Shown here: one piece after another, positions 1 to 44,378 of the stretch
Position numbering within the stretch: position 1 is the first letter of the stretch
How the letters are laid out: every line of letters starts with the position of its first letter
NCBI GenBank assembly: GCA_021204865.1
Contig: JAJPYQ010000096.1
Coordinates: forward strand, 1-44,378
Source: Prevotellaceae bacterium
GTDB taxonomy: Bacteria > Bacteroidota > Bacteroidia > Bacteroidales > Bacteroidaceae
DNA: 44,378 nt
Reading direction: 5' to 3'
The notes under the pieces: generated by a model
Databases searched by the model: none
Seen by the model: only the letters and a program-made list of their open reading frames with translations
Told to the model about the DNA's origin: nothing
Made by a program: the position numbers and the translations under genes

Positions 1-96
1 GTAGACCTCTTCATGCAAAGGGGTGTAGACCTCTTCATGCAAAGGGGTGTAGACCCTTTTGGTGAAAGGGGTGTAGAGGCCTATACGTGAGGCGCG
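1..96. repeat. 24-bp tandem palindromic array (array A), cut by window edge
   Basis: Four exact 24-base units (1-24, 25-48, 49-72, 73-96), each beginning GTAG. Units 1 and 2 are identical; the third has the stem-loop core ACCCTTTTGGTGAAAGGGGT; the fourth keeps the register but has a different core, GCCTATACGTGAGGC. The first three units belong to the same sequence family as the array at 39653-39860. The array probably extends left of the window. It lies downstream of the 2-oxoacid oxidoreductase operon. Confidence 0.85.
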
Positions 97-6642: not shown

Positions 6643-6786
6643 CAGGCAACCCCTCGCAAGGGGTTCAAGGCAACCCCTTGCGAGGGGTTCGGTTGGACCC
6701 CTTGCGAGGGGTTCCTCGGAGCCTCACTGTGAGGCGTGACGGTCCCTCACAGTGAGGCGCAAAGGAGCCTCACAGTGAGCCGCTGC
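6643..6786. repeat. 24-bp palindromic array with two different cores (array B)
   Basis: Six consecutive 24-base units. Units 1-3 (6643-6714) carry AACCCCTTGCGAGGGGTT, with unit 1 holding the reverse-complement loop (CCCCTCGCAAGGGG). Units 4-6 (6715-6786) carry an unrelated palindrome, CCTCACTGTGAGG or its complement CCTCACAGTGAGG, yet keep the 24-base register. The leader TGAAGCCTATATAACACCC just before it recurs at 28946. This array fills most of the 306-base gap between the GH3 and sulfatase genes. Confidence 0.9.
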
Positions 6787-11940: not shown

Positions 11941-12036
11941 GGACACATCCTATATAGGATACCTCCACACATCCTATATAGGATACCTCCACACATCCTA
12001 TATAGGATATCTCCACACATCCTATATAGGATATGT
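11941..12036. repeat. 24-bp palindromic array with ATCCTATATAGGAT core (array C)
   Basis: Four 24-base units (11941-11964, 11965-11988, 11989-12012, 12013-12036), each with the perfect palindrome ATCCTATATAGGAT. The flank TTATATAGGCTTCGG before it is the reverse complement of the right flank of array D. It lies between convergent genes. A hairpin-like GGTATAAGGGGC...GCCCC segment follows at 12045-12068. Confidence 0.9.
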
Positions 12037-12101: not shown

Positions 12102-12794
12102 TTAAGGCTCAACGCTCTGCGAGTGTGTCTCCGCCTCGGTCTGCGCCTCTATGTCCCTGCGCAGGTCTTCGAGTACCTTGCCGTGGTAGGAGAAGTACTT
12201 CGCCCCCTGGTACGAGCCCGAGGCGTTCTGCCTCTCTTCGGGCATGAAGGTGCCGACGAAGGGGGAGAGCTTGAAGATCCTGTCCTGATACTCCACGGCG
12301 TCGTCCGAGGCGACCTTGACGTCTATGCCAAGGGGCTCGAAGCGCACTGTCTCGCCTATCCTTATGCCCACGAGGCTGAACTTGAAGCGTCCTCGCCTGT
12401 GCGGCTCCTTCTTGGCGTCTGCCTCCTGCTCGCCGCAAGGCTTGTCGGGCAGGGGCTTGTTGTCCTCGTACTCCACCACCTCAGCGTCGTCGACAGCCTG
12501 TGCGATGTCGCGGAAGATGCTTAGAGCCACCCCGGGGGCGACGTTGAAGAACTCGCGGTTCTGCCGTATGCGCAGGTCGGTGAGGCGGTCTATCATCTTG
12601 TGCACGAGCTTCTCCACCTCGTTGTACTTCACCGTCTTCATCGTGGCGAATATCTCGAAGGGCAGAGGCACGGCCGTGTTGTCAAGCTCCTTCGAGCGCA
12701 CGTCGACGGGGCGGGCGCTCTTGCCTATCTTCACCCAGTCTTCCCTGAAGCTCGGGTTCGTGAGAATGTAGACGTAACCTGGTTCCTTACTCAT
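12102..12794 (-). CDS. GIY-YIG (T5orf172-type) nuclease-fold protein with DUF4357-like C-terminus
   Basis: Protein of 230 residues. The N-terminal half shows the GIY-YIG layout: GYVYILTN for the first strand, VKIGKS for the second, a conserved Arg in VDVRSKELDN and the Glu in RQNREFFNV. This is the T5orf172/MUG113 subtype. The C-terminal part (FSLVGIRIGE, then SYQGAKYFSYHGK near residue 200) resembles DUF4357. Such proteins often sit near restriction or defence genes, and here a restriction-modification pair follows upstream on the same strand. GC content matches the host chromosome rather than the lower-GC pair, so it may not have arrived together with them. Substrate unknown. Confidence 0.8.
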   Translation of the reverse strand: MSKEPGYVYILTNPSFREDWVKIGKSARPVDVRSKELDNTAVPLPFEIFATMKTVKYNEVEKLVHKMIDRLTDLRIRQNREFFNVAPGVALSIFRDIAQAVDDAEVVEYEDNKPLPDKPCGEQEADAKKEPHRRGRFKFSLVGIRIGETVRFEPLGIDVKVASDDAVEYQDRIFKLSPFVGTFMPEERQNASGSYQGAKYFSYHGKVLEDLRRDIEAQTEAETHSQSVEP

Positions 12795-12825
12795 AGTGTA
12801 TCGTTTTCCTTGGTGTGATGCTTAG

Positions 12826-13779
12826 CTATCTTATGCGACGATGCCCGGGAGATGCGCCGAGGAACTTGTCTCCATTGAGATGTATCATGTGGTCGGGCAT
12901 ACTCGCTATCCAGACCTCAGTCTCCCACGCCAATTGCTCTGAGAACTTCTTGAACGTGCGGAAATCAAGGAACGCTGTCACATATATCTTCGCTGCCTTA
13001 ACTCTCTCTGTCATAGCCTCTATCTCCAATATCCGTTTCGGGTTCATCGGACCGACAGAAGTCACCGCTTCCACGAAGTACAGCCAATCCTTGTCTTCCC
13101 TGTACAGCACGACATCAGGCATCTTGTCATGCGCCGTTATCGAGAAGCCGACAGAGGAAAGCCTCTCCACATTCTTGACCATGTCTTTCTTAGTGGTGTC
13201 GCCAACGTAAAGGCACTCCGAGCTTGGTGCAAAGCGAGGCGCGAACTCCTCTATTATGGCTTTCTGTAACTGGTTGTGCTTGCCTGGACTAAACGTAAAG
13301 TCCCTATCGTTTATCCTCACAGGCATTTTCCGCATTTTCCTTTTTGAGGCATAAAGGTTGGATAAGGTGTCATGTCTGTCGAGAAACAGCCTCAACGCTT
13401 CGTTTGTCCCCAAAGCGCATGCCTCATTGCCGTCTACTGATTGCATGACGGCAAGAAACTCATCCGTCAAGCGATAGTGATAGTTGGGGCTGTTGGTAGC
13501 CATCCCATTGTCTTCAACAAGAGCGGCAGTCCTGAATGGGTGCATAGCTTGTTTGCGGAACGTTTCCCTTGAGTTCTCCGCATACCTGAAGCCATAACAC
13601 TCAGCGATGAACGCCATGACATCATGAATTCTTATCCAGCCGTTAGTTGCCTCAGACCAAGGCATCTCTCTCTTTAGCCTTGCCATCGCAAGTAAAGTCA
13701 GGCAACAAAGCTGGCTTCGCTGCCTTAGTGGCATCTTTACTGCCGCCAACAGTTCTTTCGCCTGCTCTAACTTATCCAT
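12826..13779 (-). CDS. Type II restriction endonuclease, BsuBI/PstI family
   Basis: Protein of 317 residues. The C-terminal half matches BsuBI/PstI-type enzymes: CLYVGDTTKKDMV, then MPDVVLY followed by WLYFVEAVTSVGPMNPKR, which supplies the acidic and Glu-x-Val type catalytic residues of the PD-(D/E)xK fold and the family-specific VTSxGP block. The N-terminal half is helical and probably contacts DNA. Known family members cut CTGCAG; this recognition is inferred by homology. The start lies inside the end of the methyltransferase gene (13-base overlap), a common arrangement that delays the nuclease. Base composition is clearly lower in GC than the flanking genes. Confidence 0.87.
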   Translation of the reverse strand: MDKLEQAKELLAAVKMPLRQRSQLCCLTLLAMARLKREMPWSEATNGWIRIHDVMAFIAECYGFRYAENSRETFRKQAMHPFRTAALVEDNGMATNSPNYHYRLTDEFLAVMQSVDGNEACALGTNEALRLFLDRHDTLSNLYASKRKMRKMPVRINDRDFTFSPGKHNQLQKAIIEEFAPRFAPSSECLYVGDTTKKDMVKNVERLSSVGFSITAHDKMPDVVLYREDKDWLYFVEAVTSVGPMNPKRILEIEAMTERVKAAKIYVTAFLDFRTFKKFSEQLAWETEVWIASMPDHMIHLNGDKFLGASPGHRRIR

Positions 13780-15221
13780 CTGCTGAGTATCTCATTGCAA
13801 TTTGCCACGGACAATTCCATGTGCATTAGCTCCCTCCCCATCTCTTCTACCACTGGTCTTTCGGGAATGGGCATCTGGTTTATCTCCGTCGAGTTAACCT
13901 GTGTCGAGCCATTGAGTATTCTGTAATAGCTATCGTAAAGGCTGGAGTTCAGCAGTACAAATAGCCCGTATGTCACACAGGGCGAGTCGCACTTGATATA
14001 GTTGACTTTATTCTGTGTGCTGATGTATGCGAACTGCGGATATTCTTGTTTCAGGTATATACCACACTGCAGCCTGCGCTCTTCTTCTTTTGAGGTGAAA
14101 CGTTTAACCATCAGGAAGTCACTGTTCTCTTGCAAGAACGCTTTCCTGTCTGTCTTGATAACCTCTCCCTCCTTCCCCAAAGGCCAGATGACACGACCGC
14201 CTTTGATATGCTGTGAATACAATAGAGGAAACGCTCCCTCCTCCAGCCGGTCGCGCAAGGCTTCCCTCGTTCTGAAGTCAACGATTAAGCCAGTCTGCAT
14301 ACGCATATTGAGCTCAGGCAAAGTCTTTCGGAAATGGTTTACTTGGTTAAGGACATCGACATCACTGTTGTTAGTGGCAAGATAGACAAACTGATTGGGG
14401 GACACGATGGTCTCGTAAGGTGCGCGGAAACGCTTGAAGTCCTTGAAGTCAGAGGTGGACGATGACGTGATATTGATGTGGTCAGGCTTTACAGTCGTTC
14501 TCCTTACCTTTATGATTAATGTCTCCTGCAATACCGCTTCACGGTCAAACACCTTGTCCCTGCTATCGAACAGATGAATGTCAGTTATCACGCAATTGGC
14601 AAACAGGTATTGCCTGAAACGCTTGAAGTACGCTCCCGATGTCCAAGAGCGCGGCACTATGTAAACCAATTCTTGCCCCTTCCTCAAGTTGCGAATGCCC
14701 ATAGCCCAAAACAGGAAGTAAAGATTGGGGGCTCCGTGGCAAACCGTCCGCATCGCCTTTGCCTCTTTCGCCTCTTTCGGTATCTTGAGATAAGGAGGAT
14801 TGCCAATGATGTAATCGTAGACGTTATTGTCGACTGGGAACAGAGAACAGTCCTCAAATGTCTGGCTTGTGATATAGTTATCTTGGATTATCTCATACGA
14901 TATGCCGCATTCAGCCTTTGCCAAGTCTAAGTTCGCCTTTAACAAAGGAAGTACTCGTTCGTCTGTCTCGTAGCAAGTCACACATATCTTTCCCTTGTAG
15001 CCGTCCCGCTTCAGCCTGTCAATGACCGCAGCCGTTAAAATGCCAGTACCCGCCCCAGCGTCCAACAGTCGTAGCTCTGGCTTGGAAAAGTCAAAGTCAA
15101 AGAGAGAAGCCATAAATTCGGCAGTGGTCGCATTCGTGAAGAACTGACCATACATCTTCCTCTTCGCTTTGGGCACAGAAGCTATGAAACCATCGGTGTT
15201 CCTTAATGTTGAACTTAGCAT
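13767..15221 (-). CDS. N6-adenine DNA methyltransferase, partner of the BsuBI/PstI-type nuclease
   Basis: Protein of 484 residues. Motif I for S-adenosylmethionine binding is LLDAGAGTGILTAA (around residue 55) and the catalytic motif IV is DYIIGNPPYLKIPK, the NPPY form of N6-adenine methylases. An upstream motif X region (KMYGQFFTNATTAEFMASLF) gives the gamma-class order. The C-terminal half should hold the target-recognition domain. It protects host DNA at the site cut by the nuclease that overlaps its 3' end. It begins only 22 bases after the mltG stop on the same strand, with no clear promoter in that gap, and its GC content (near 50% in lines counted by eye) is low for this window. Confidence 0.9.
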   Translation of the reverse strand: MLSSTLRNTDGFIASVPKAKRKMYGQFFTNATTAEFMASLFDFDFSKPELRLLDAGAGTGILTAAVIDRLKRDGYKGKICVTCYETDERVLPLLKANLDLAKAECGISYEIIQDNYITSQTFEDCSLFPVDNNVYDYIIGNPPYLKIPKEAKEAKAMRTVCHGAPNLYFLFWAMGIRNLRKGQELVYIVPRSWTSGAYFKRFRQYLFANCVITDIHLFDSRDKVFDREAVLQETLIIKVRRTTVKPDHINITSSSTSDFKDFKRFRAPYETIVSPNQFVYLATNNSDVDVLNQVNHFRKTLPELNMRMQTGLIVDFRTREALRDRLEEGAFPLLYSQHIKGGRVIWPLGKEGEVIKTDRKAFLQENSDFLMVKRFTSKEEERRLQCGIYLKQEYPQFAYISTQNKVNYIKCDSPCVTYGLFVLLNSSLYDSYYRILNGSTQVNSTEINQMPIPERPVVEEMGRELMHMELSVANCNEILSRWIS

Positions 15222-21203: not shown

Positions 21204-21256
21204 AGGTATGTATCGGACGGCAATTTAGGTGAAAAGATGTCCCGAGGCGAGGGCAA

Positions 21257-21367
21257 TCAACCGCACGGGACAAATCAATCAACCGCGGCAGTCGATGCCC
21301 CTCGACCGCACGAGGCGAATCAATCGACCGCACGAGGCGAATCAATCGACCGCACGAGGCGATTGGC
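21257..21367. repeat. 22-bp direct repeat array (array F1)
   Basis: About five units of 22-23 bases; units 21302-21323 and 21324-21345 are identical (TCGACCGCACGAGGCGAATC plus AA) and the flanking ones are degenerate (TCAACCGCACGGGAC...). It lies in the 650-base gap between the divergent kinase and 21788 genes, which carries no convincing gene. Confidence 0.85.
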
Positions 21368-21518
21368 AAGACGCTTCGAAGGTCGTCGGGCACCTCCACG
21401 ATGCGTTATGGGCGACGGCCATTGAATTGTAGCTAATCGCAACGTTGCGTGAAGGTCGACGGCTTATAAAGCTTCAGGTCGGCTCCAACGTTGTCGCAAG
21501 CCTAACGCAACGTGCGAG

Positions 21519-21606
21519 TTGGGCGACGCCTAATTAGGCGTTGCCCATTACCTAATTAGGCGTTGCCCAATTCCTAATTAGGCGTTGCCCGAAACCTAAT
21601 TAGGTT
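21519..21606. repeat. 22-bp palindromic array with CCTAATTAGG core (array F2)
   Basis: Four 22-base units (21519, 21541, 21563, 21585), each with CCTAATTAGG, mostly as GCCTAATTAGGC or ATTAGGCGTTGCCC context. The final copy becomes AAACCTAATTAGGTTTTTT, a stem with T tract that would act as a plus-strand terminator. Between F1 and F2 lie further short palindromes such as CGCAACGTTGCG (21439-21450). Confidence 0.88.
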
Positions 21607-21752
21607 TTTTATGCCCTTTATCGGAGCGTGTTCCAGAGGGAATGAGCGGAACACGCTGCGAATATAGTGAATTTTGGCGGCAGTTGCAAGGATAAAGCGC
21701 CCCGTTTCGCCAAGCGCGGGGGAAATTCACGCGTAAATATGGCGTTATTTTA

Positions 21753-28966: not shown

Positions 28967-29062
28967 AGACATATCCTATATAGGATGTGTAGATATATCC
29001 TAAATAGGATGTGTGGACATATCCTATATAGGATGTGTCCGAAGCCTATACGTGAGGCTTAA
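28967..29062. repeat. 24-bp palindromic array (array D), related to array C
   Basis: Three 24-base units (28967, 28991, 29015) with ATCCTATATAGGAT (the middle one ATCCTAAATAGGAT), then a fourth in-register unit with GCCTATACGTGAGGC, the same core that ends array A. Left leader GAAGCCTGTATAACACCC matches the one before array B; right flank GTGTCCGAAGCCTATA matches array C read in reverse. Confidence 0.9.
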
Positions 29063-39652: not shown

Positions 39653-39860
39653 ACCCTTCGAGAAAGGGTTGTAGAGGCCCTTCGGCAAAGGGTTGTAGAG
39701 GCCCTTCGCAAAAGAGGTGTAGACCCCTTTCGCAAAAGAGGTGTAGACCCTTTCGCCCAAAGAGGTGTAGACCCTTTCGCCCAAAGAGGTGTAGACCCCT
39801 TTACCCAAAGAGGTGTAGACCCCTTTACCCAAAGAGGTGTAGACCCCTTTCGCGGGCGCC
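39653..39860. repeat. 24-bp tandem palindromic array (array E), same family as array A
   Basis: Seven complete 24-base units at 39671, 39695, 39719, 39743, 39767, 39791 and 39815, with partial units at each end. Each starts GTAGA and has a stem CCCTTT / AAAGAGG with a variable loop. Units 39791 and 39815 are identical, as are 39743 and 39767. Because 24 is a multiple of three, several reading frames stay open across it, but none looks like a gene. Confidence 0.92.
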
Positions 39861-44323: not shown

Positions 44324-44378
44324 TGCTAACAAGCAGGTGAATTGAGGTGCTAACAAGCAGGTGAATTGAGGTGCTAAC
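44324..44378. repeat. 24-bp tandem array (array G), cut by window end
   Basis: Two complete 24-base units (44324-44347, 44348-44371) and part of a third, with TGCTAACAAGCA as core; the first copy extends to CCTGCTAACAAGCAGG. Preceded by AAGCCTCTTATAC, a relative of the flanking motif of arrays B to D. It continues beyond the window. Confidence 0.85.

Follow-up and report, generated by a model that had tools for sequence, protein, structure and literature searches.

Palindromic tandem arrays with a narrow 22- to 24-bp pitch over mostly unrelated cores in a Prevotellaceae genome and its relatives

Introduction

Tandem repeats are normally thought to inherit the length of whatever was duplicated. 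Protein sites that recur roughly every two helical turns are known from the iterons of plasmid origins and from the ~22-bp end sites of Tn7 and Mu; those systems have one core per replicon or element at a single location, whereas the arrays described here carry many cores chromosome-wide. The species that bears them belongs to the same order as Porphyromonas gingivalis. In that organism, BrickBuilt is a 23-nt minisatellite MITE of one family, intergenic, built of a head-to-tail unit without spacers, and equipped with a leader, a tail, and IS5-like terminal repeats (PMC4596501). Tandem repeats of 22, 23, and 41 nt, reported for strain W83, are also mentioned in that report, whose text holds no word starting with "palindrom." Judged by the available portion of that report, BrickBuilt is the closest described element: our arrays resemble it in being intergenic, in their head-to-tail units of 22 to 24 bp, in their dispersed copies, and in their variable unit number. 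They differ from it, on the same portion, in having about ten families per genome, palindromic cores, one narrow pitch over unlike cores, and a distribution over many species. A leader or tail with terminal inverted repeats, of the kind reported in the available BrickBuilt text, was not found at our loci, where the common sequence is in most cases the array plus up to ~50 bp of flank; matches farther than ~50 bp out seem mostly to be neighboring arrays.

REPs, as presented in the available parts of PMC3733652 and PMC3116915, are palindromes of 20–40 bp that bear a GTAG or CGTC tag and often stand alone or as pairs with 1–5 or 20–100 bp between them. Like the REP, BIME, and REPIN elements of those sources, the arrays consist of short, extragenic, multicopy palindromes in species-specific families, some of them clustered or in tandem, and two RAYT-size genes occur in this genome. 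Unlike the REPs described there, their units stand head to tail at a fixed 22–24 bp, are mostly untagged, and also occur where no Y1 transposase was seen. The archaeal Borg elements offer a further likeness, as the available part of PMC9879509 describes many independently arisen, fast-changing tandem arrays, partly intergenic, within one lineage; the Borg units described there, however, are perfect copies of differing lengths, and the text has no word starting with "palindrom." Searches of the open-access literature yielded no description of a common repeat length over unrelated palindromes, which is weak evidence of absence since subscription papers mostly fall outside it, and the available part of a P. 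gingivalis resequencing paper (PMC5771137) contains nothing on 22-bp repeats. Two familiar classes were set aside. CRISPR arrays have repeats of 24–48 bp and unique spacers of even length, along with cas genes, while the units here abut at 22–24 bp with a variable part of ~4–14 bp. Protein-coding tandem repeats were rejected because periods of 22 and 23 are not multiples of 3 and the arrays are noncoding by our gene calls. What sets these arrays apart is the narrow pitch over mostly unrelated palindromic cores, at 22, 23, or 24 bp.

Results and Discussion

Arrays in the window

The window is the whole stretch of DNA analyzed, a 44,378-nt contig, and all coordinates below refer to its + strand. 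A first-pass annotation had described six intergenic arrays in it, each with units of exactly 24 bases and together using four or more unrelated palindromes. All six proved to be tandem, with palindromic or near-palindromic units. Array A (1..96), cut by the contig start, has three 24-bp units of family a (GTAGACC..GGGGT) and then a fourth with GCCTATACGTGAGGC. Array E (39663..39853) belongs to the same family, with ~8 units of 24 bp, five of which lie within 7 mismatches of the family a consensus; it had no match among plasmid records. Array C (11941..12036) comprises four 24-bp units of ATCCTATATAGGAT, which defines family c, and is flanked by genes that are convergent by our gene calls. Array D (28967..29062) consists of three family c units at 24 bp followed by GCCTATACGTGAGGC. 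Array F (44324..44378), cut by the contig end, holds 2.3 copies of TGCTAACAAGCAGGTGAATTGAGG and represents family d (GAGGTGCTAACAAGCAGGTG). Array B (6643..6786) begins with three copies of AACCCCTYGCRAGGGGTT (family b) at 24 bp and continues with three of CTCACWGTGAG at 23 bp. The six arrays represent four mutually unlike families at 24 bp, and array B adds its second core; one core is shared by A and E and another by C and D.

Array B had been singled out for a core change without any slip in register. Its palindrome centers lie at 6656.5, 6680.5, 6704.5, 6728, 6751, and 6774, giving spacings of 24, 24, 23.5, 23, and 23 bp, so the pitch does shift from 24 to 23 bp where the core changes. The core of its first unit is the reverse complement of the core of its second. 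The intergenic location of the six arrays agrees with our gene calls with one exception: taken at its longest frame, the ORF after array B shares its first 50 bases with the array, although it probably starts farther downstream.

An exact 24-base unit does not hold throughout the window either, which also contains two 22-bp arrays absent from the first-pass annotation. At 21256..21365, TCGACCGCACGAGGCGAATCAA recurs at 22 bp; the repeat finder reports 21302-21362, and the leftward part, which includes one 23-bp step, was added by eye. A further 22-bp array at 21438..21607 contains four copies of CCTAATTAGG (21529-21604; cores centered at 21533.5, 21555.5, 21577.5, and 21599.5), preceded by four short, unlike palindromes centered at 21443.5, 21467, 21489.5, and 21511, with a spacing of 21.5–23.5 bp that is suggestive only. 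We treat the run at 21443-21511 as a hint, not a result, because three of its four palindromes have arms of only 4 bp, chance yields such palindromes, and four other short ones in the stretch were set aside.

Beside array C, at 12102-15221, a gene for a T5orf172/MUG113 domain protein lies near a DNA adenine methyltransferase-like gene. The matches fall below the curated cut-off, and the region may be an island of restriction or defense genes.

Period across the genome

Arrays were located with Tandem Repeats Finder and a simple gene mask in an own-genome sample of 611,591 bp, made up of the window and 40 further stretches and covering 26% of the 2.34-Mb, 96-contig genome. Gene calling relied on a simple script based on ORFs and codon usage, which makes the coding and noncoding labels approximate (124 versus 122 noncoding arrays in two runs). 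The stretches came from contigs C1 to C40, mostly starting at base 1, and those on C24 and C28 were placed over known family c matches. Because contig starts are array-rich and these two stretches were so chosen, the density of 16 arrays per 10 kb of noncoding sequence is an overestimate.

Among the 122 noncoding arrays, 24 have a period of 22 bp, 38 of 23 bp, and 34 of 24 bp (96 in all), and three have a period of 21 bp. The remaining periods are 1–16 bp (seven arrays), 42–48 bp (eleven), 66 or 69 bp (four), and 75 bp (one), with none from 25 to 41 bp. The broad spread of periods that would speak against a set unit length was not seen, and the unit proved to be 22, 23, or 24 bp, one value per family. 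Coding-class repeats of the same genome have periods of 15–20 (four), 21 (five), 22 (three), 23 (four), 24 (six), and 25–40 bp (four); this class is a poor control because its 22s and 23s are probably arrays in miscalled frames.

Ten families, a to j, were defined by hand from their cores. Single-linkage clustering of arrays had chained 73 of 99 into one cluster and was discarded. Families a, b, c, and d occupy 19, 16, 5, and 11 loci in the 611,591 bp, a few of them chance hits since up to 7 mismatches were allowed, and their same-strand neighbors stand at 24 bp. Families e, f, and g have a period of 23 bp and the others 22 or 24 bp; in all ten, the spacings listed for same-strand neighbors correspond, in every case but one, to one or two periods of the family. 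Family a contributes 26 steps of 24 bp and family e 51 steps of 23 bp. Families c, h, and i are small, and g and j are loose, g matching 79 places of which 24 are noncoding.

Distribution in relatives

The genus sample comprised 40 stretches (781 kb) from 36 other genomes. For 20 of the genus stretches, 8 came from contigs with a strong or weak Y1_Tnp match, and 5 of these include the match. Of the 60 noncoding genus arrays with a period of 15–60 bp, 33 have a period of 22 bp, six of 21, two of 23, and one of 24; five fall at 15–20 bp, seven at 25–40 bp, and six are longer. A set of named relatives, the best 80 of 590 glmM loci (830 kb, partly of the same species), gave 50 arrays, with 19 at 22 bp, six at 21, one at 23, one at 24, twelve at 15–20, and seven at 25–40 bp. 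The GlmM of the window is at most 87% identical to any protein among these best 80 of 590 loci, from which its own or very near records may have been left out; the top of the set consists of Prevotellaceae and Bacteroidaceae metagenome assemblies, several from animal guts and rumen. In other families of the order (20 stretches), one of 15 arrays has a period of 22 bp, two of 21, and one of 23, and two stand at 44 bp. As small controls from outside the phylum, 300 kb of S. meliloti plasmids held one array, of period 15–20, and 100 kb of E. coli held none by one gene calling, whereas another calling, on 50 of these kb, classed one period-21 array as noncoding. Coding repeats in the four tabulated groups of relatives lack a 22–23-bp peak (22 at 15–20 bp, 16 at 21, four at 22, none at 23, five at 24, and 15 at 25–40 bp). 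The sharp peak over many unrelated cores that had been anticipated at 24 bp is thus narrow as foreseen, but its mode in the genus is 22 bp. The arrays appear to characterize a lineage, in which 22 bp dominates and this species stands out by its 23- and 24-bp expansions.

One account of this pattern is common descent without any ruler, in which an old 22-bp minisatellite spread, its cores were substituted, and its length was inherited. We consider it rather unlikely, although it has points in its favor. Each family keeps one period, and the 53 genus arrays with a base unit of 21–24 bp (own species excluded) fall into 34 clusters, compared with 51–52 after shuffling, at a criterion of 12 of 14 matching bases and with a few long consensus units (44, 66, and 69 bp, one probably coding) included. 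Some cores are thus common to several species and many are not, so the cores are for the most part not decayed copies of one sequence, yet neither are they wholly independent. Against common descent stand the narrow ranges of single families. Family a was found in two of 61 genus genomes, its own and one with a weak match, and families h and e in one of 31, their own only, which leaves none or almost none in 60, 30, and 30 other genomes; these three families hardly occur, if at all, outside this species. Deeper sampling of two near relatives (372 kb) showed them to be almost array-free, with two arrays of period 22. That the nearest sampled kin nearly lack arrays also counts against inheritance from an old minisatellite, and it makes the arrays seem dispensable.

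At the glmM end of the window, an alignment with ten near-kin stretches covers only glmM and its neighbor. In four species an array with a core of its own precedes glmM, which we judged unremarkable given array density.

Unit anatomy and step length

A unit consists of a palindromic core of 10–20 bp, perfect or imperfect in its pairing, and a freely varying spacer. Consensus units are more palindromic than shuffled ones in the own genome (5.03 versus 3.12; 78 arrays), in the genus (4.59 versus 3.15; 32 arrays), and in named relatives (5.17 versus 3.31; 19 arrays from the best 80 of 590 loci). Where an array has a clear palindrome and its units vary to some extent, conservation is higher in the core than in the spacer: 0.910 versus 0.749 in the own genome (35 of 52 arrays, p = 7.9e-5), 0.816 versus 0.620 in the genus (16 of 19, p = 0.005), and 0.868 versus 0.677 in the best 80 of 590 named-relative loci (10 of 12, p = 0.01). 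Between successive units, spacers differ at 18, 31, and 33% of positions in these three samples and cores at 4, 9, and 9%.

Despite these differences, single core-to-core steps equal the period in 415 of 428 cases (274 of 276 in the own genome, 91 of 99 in the genus, and 50 of 53 in named relatives). The 13 exceptions comprise three of 1–2 bp and ten of 4–9 bp, most of the latter being, in our view, fortuitous matches to the core. Eight of the 11 double steps are exact and three are off by 1, 2, and 4 bp. Neutral intergenic alignments of relatives contain 281 gap openings to 1956 mismatches, and a simulation at this rate, read with the same finder, predicts ~28 single-step offsets of 1–3 bp against the three observed; it lets units evolve independently, and homogenization between them would make the difference less marked. 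Small length errors occur at about one-tenth of the simulated frequency, which is a further point against common descent with a merely inherited length.

The spelling of the word mostly changes by array and by species while the spacing stays near 22 bp, or at 23 or 24 bp in some families of this species, which suggests that something measures distance rather than reads letters. Helical phasing alone does not explain the pitch, as 23 and 24 bp are not whole helical turns. The arrays might work like a cooperative operator array, in which one protein occupies adjacent cores and its binding depends on their spacing; the conserved palindromic cores and locked spacing bear on this only indirectly. 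Our preferred reading, held tentatively and at somewhat less than even confidence, is that these are REP/BrickBuilt-like dispersed noncoding palindromic minisatellites of a Bacteroidales genus whose pitch is kept by a putative dimeric DNA-binding protein or transposase. The palindromes would be sites for a homodimeric DNA-binding protein or a transposase multimer, which might sit on neighboring units at a fixed distance. Units could arise by ordinary slippage, with only those in step persisting, and a changing binding partner could drive the turnover of cores. That dozens of repeats, for the most part unrelated, have the same length, and that small length changes are removed from them while the spacer drifts, would reflect an unrecognized fixed-step DNA-binding or copying activity, and the natural variants at 22, 23, and 24 bp provide a ready test set. 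The first-pass annotation had named possible rulers, a protein among them; our protein search, which was for Y1_Tnp, identified no pitch-keeping protein, and a named ruler is not supported. A templated copying process, also proposed there, is conceivable.

The centers of some cores are asymmetric and occur in two reverse-complement states, with intermediates rarer. In family b, the center reads TG 20 times, CA 10, TA 2, and CG 2 (p = 2.8e-5, with units of one array counted singly); in family a, positions 8 and 21 read TG 21 times, CA 13, CG 6, and TA 3 (p = 3e-4, units likewise counted singly). The first two units of array B differ in this way. The two states imply that palindromic cores turn round relative to their neighbors, perhaps because the two arms recombine or because the polymerase switches template within a hairpin. 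They also lend themselves to a purely mutational origin, in which one-strand hairpins lead the polymerase to switch template, duplicating palindromic units and flipping their centers with no binding protein involved. This origin is improbable in our assessment: it offers no reason for 22 bp or for the rarity of small changes in spacer length, and such arrays are missing from the small S. meliloti control and, apart from the one array that depends on gene calling, from that of E. coli.

Register across core changes

Several loci retain register where one core gives way to another. In the window, GCCTATACGTGAGGC lies at 79-93 in array A (center 86, 24.0 bp from the center of the third unit at 62) and at 29044-29058 after array D (center 29051, 23.5 bp from the last core). 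Even with one mismatch allowed, it occurs only these two times in the genome, each time one period past an array, and the two arrays are themselves unlike. A second case is TTTCCTTAAGGAAA, which has five genomic copies, its reversed control having none. At four of them, a palindrome with another core stands at 22.0 bp (CCACACGTGG, GCTACACGTAGC, CCACGTGTGG, and CTACATGTGA); at the fifth, GCTACGTGTAGC stands at 44.0 bp, past a unit of CCTTAAGG, which has the core of TTTCCTTAAGGAAA itself. The pattern was first seen in three of the loci, and the remaining two (one at 22.0 bp and the other at 44.0 bp) were read afterward; the CCACACGTGG and CCACGTGTGG matches, just below the test threshold, were read from aligned rows. 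The neighboring cores at the five loci are partly interrelated and look like variants of one frame, as common descent would have it. In one relative, two loci of ~18 and ~12 rows of 22 bp run through different cores, by eye.

We also walked outward from 249 array edges, counting as an unrelated palindrome one with at least 6 of 8 pairs. Such palindromes lie exactly one period past the edge in 8 of 170 cases, compared with 0.6% elsewhere (p = 1e-5), or in 6 of 170 (p = 6e-4) when two possibly decayed relatives are removed. Lesser peaks ~11 bp before and after this position are consistent with the second dyad that these arrays have. Two cruder tests were null. The spacing of palindrome pairs in intergenic DNA of the own genome, genus, and order has no 22–24-bp peak for dissimilar sequences; over all pairs, in whole sequence and intergenic DNA alike, there is a 22–24-bp peak for like cores and none that is clear for unlike ones. 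The phase differences of eight usable neighboring array pairs run from -4 to 11 with no clustering, in a test whose center call is ambiguous, each period of these arrays containing two dyads. In the own genome, six pairs of neighboring arrays differ in period. Register survives several changes of core, in excess of chance in two tests and not in the two cruder ones. The proposal that length is set independently of sequence thus has partial support, once the unit length is corrected.

A more far-reaching interpretation takes the arrays as a chromosome-wide scaffold of palindromes that conserves distance and not sequence. A protein or copying enzyme with a step of ~22 bp would lay down or police the units, and cores, re-invented in each species, could replace one another on the spot, even inside a single array, while the register is retained. 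We regard this as doubtful, and keep to dispersed palindromic minisatellites with a protein-kept pitch as the tentative choice.

The five TTTCCTTAAGGAAA copies (loci L289, L290, L291, L292, and L293) form a composite in a single register: in most copies, TTTCCTTAAGGAAA is flanked by 22-bp ATTCC..GCTTTT units to one side, and the palindromic units lie to the opposite side.

RAYT genes and end tags

Another candidate explanation is that the arrays are mobile palindromes akin to REPs, with a RAYT (Y1 transposase) that would both move them and set the unit length. Two RAYT-size Y1_Tnp genes in the own genome, flanked by GTAG-tagged palindromes and by 22- or 44-bp arrays, fit this idea, as does the GTAG of family a. 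The proximity means little where arrays are so dense, however, and GTAG is near-constant in only one of ten families. Y1_Tnp matches above the cut-off occur in 18 of 61 genus genomes, and RAYT-size genes, by our reading frames of 142–203 aa with a near-full Y1_Tnp match, in only 7 of these 61 incomplete genomes, a scarcity that makes a RAYT unlikely as the general cause. Arrays of 22 bp are moreover present in four genomes (G005, G012, G049, and G068) without any Y1_Tnp match. Movement by a RAYT is on balance a poor candidate for what fixes the pitch, and a putative dimeric binding protein, or a transposase multimer, remains our provisional preference.

An unpaired GTAG or CGTC end tag of the REP type is not general among the families: by eye, GTAG is near-constant only in family a, and the column counts of the other families shown have no constant word of this kind. 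Family e has CGTC inside its palindromic core, on one strand, and not as an end tag.

The two RAYT-size genes, L159:1408-1851 and L160:1447-1941, lie on contig C24, ~8 kb apart and oppositely oriented. GTAG-tagged palindromes of the GTAGCCGGGGGTCGAGC..GACACCCCCGG type flank the first, and both genes are near 22- or 44-bp arrays. In the 44-bp array at L160:833-976, two different palindromes alternate every 22 bp. Arrays of 44 to 45 bp (AACCCTCGGCTACTC..ACCCCC..GGGGGTT) at L022:41-232 and L160:1204-1421 carry GTAG on the other strand, and one of them is directly upstream of a RAYT-size gene.

Strand symmetry and gene context

The arrays might instead act when transcribed, as hairpin terminators, mRNA barriers, or small RNAs, the last having been raised in the first-pass annotation. 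A slight convergent excess could be read this way: of 87 arrays, 33 lie between convergent, 42 between co-directional, and 12 between divergent genes, with gaps totaling 14.1, 23.7, and 9.8 kb. This bias toward converging genes is weak, and the other indications run the opposite way. Over ten families, units are oriented with their genes in 39 cases and against them in 38, single families varying (10 to 18 in g, 5 to 1 in j); G-T and A-C mispairs in six families are about equal, at 98 and 90; and the window has no Rfam match at the gathering score. Mispair symmetry, the lack of an overall orientation, and the lack of an Rfam match in the window suggest that the arrays work as double-stranded DNA and not as RNA, and transcribed hairpins, small RNAs included, are very unlikely.

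Contig ends and a coding repeat

Of 62 sampled contig ends, 19 lie within 60 bp of an array, compared with about 3% expected. Arrays at many contig ends are what one would expect if these repeats break assemblies, and the arrays may thus explain breaks in this one. Separately, one coding tandem-repeat block occurs twice in the own genome, at L017:8203-8351 and L017:11498-11646, ~3.3 kb apart, which suggests a duplication.
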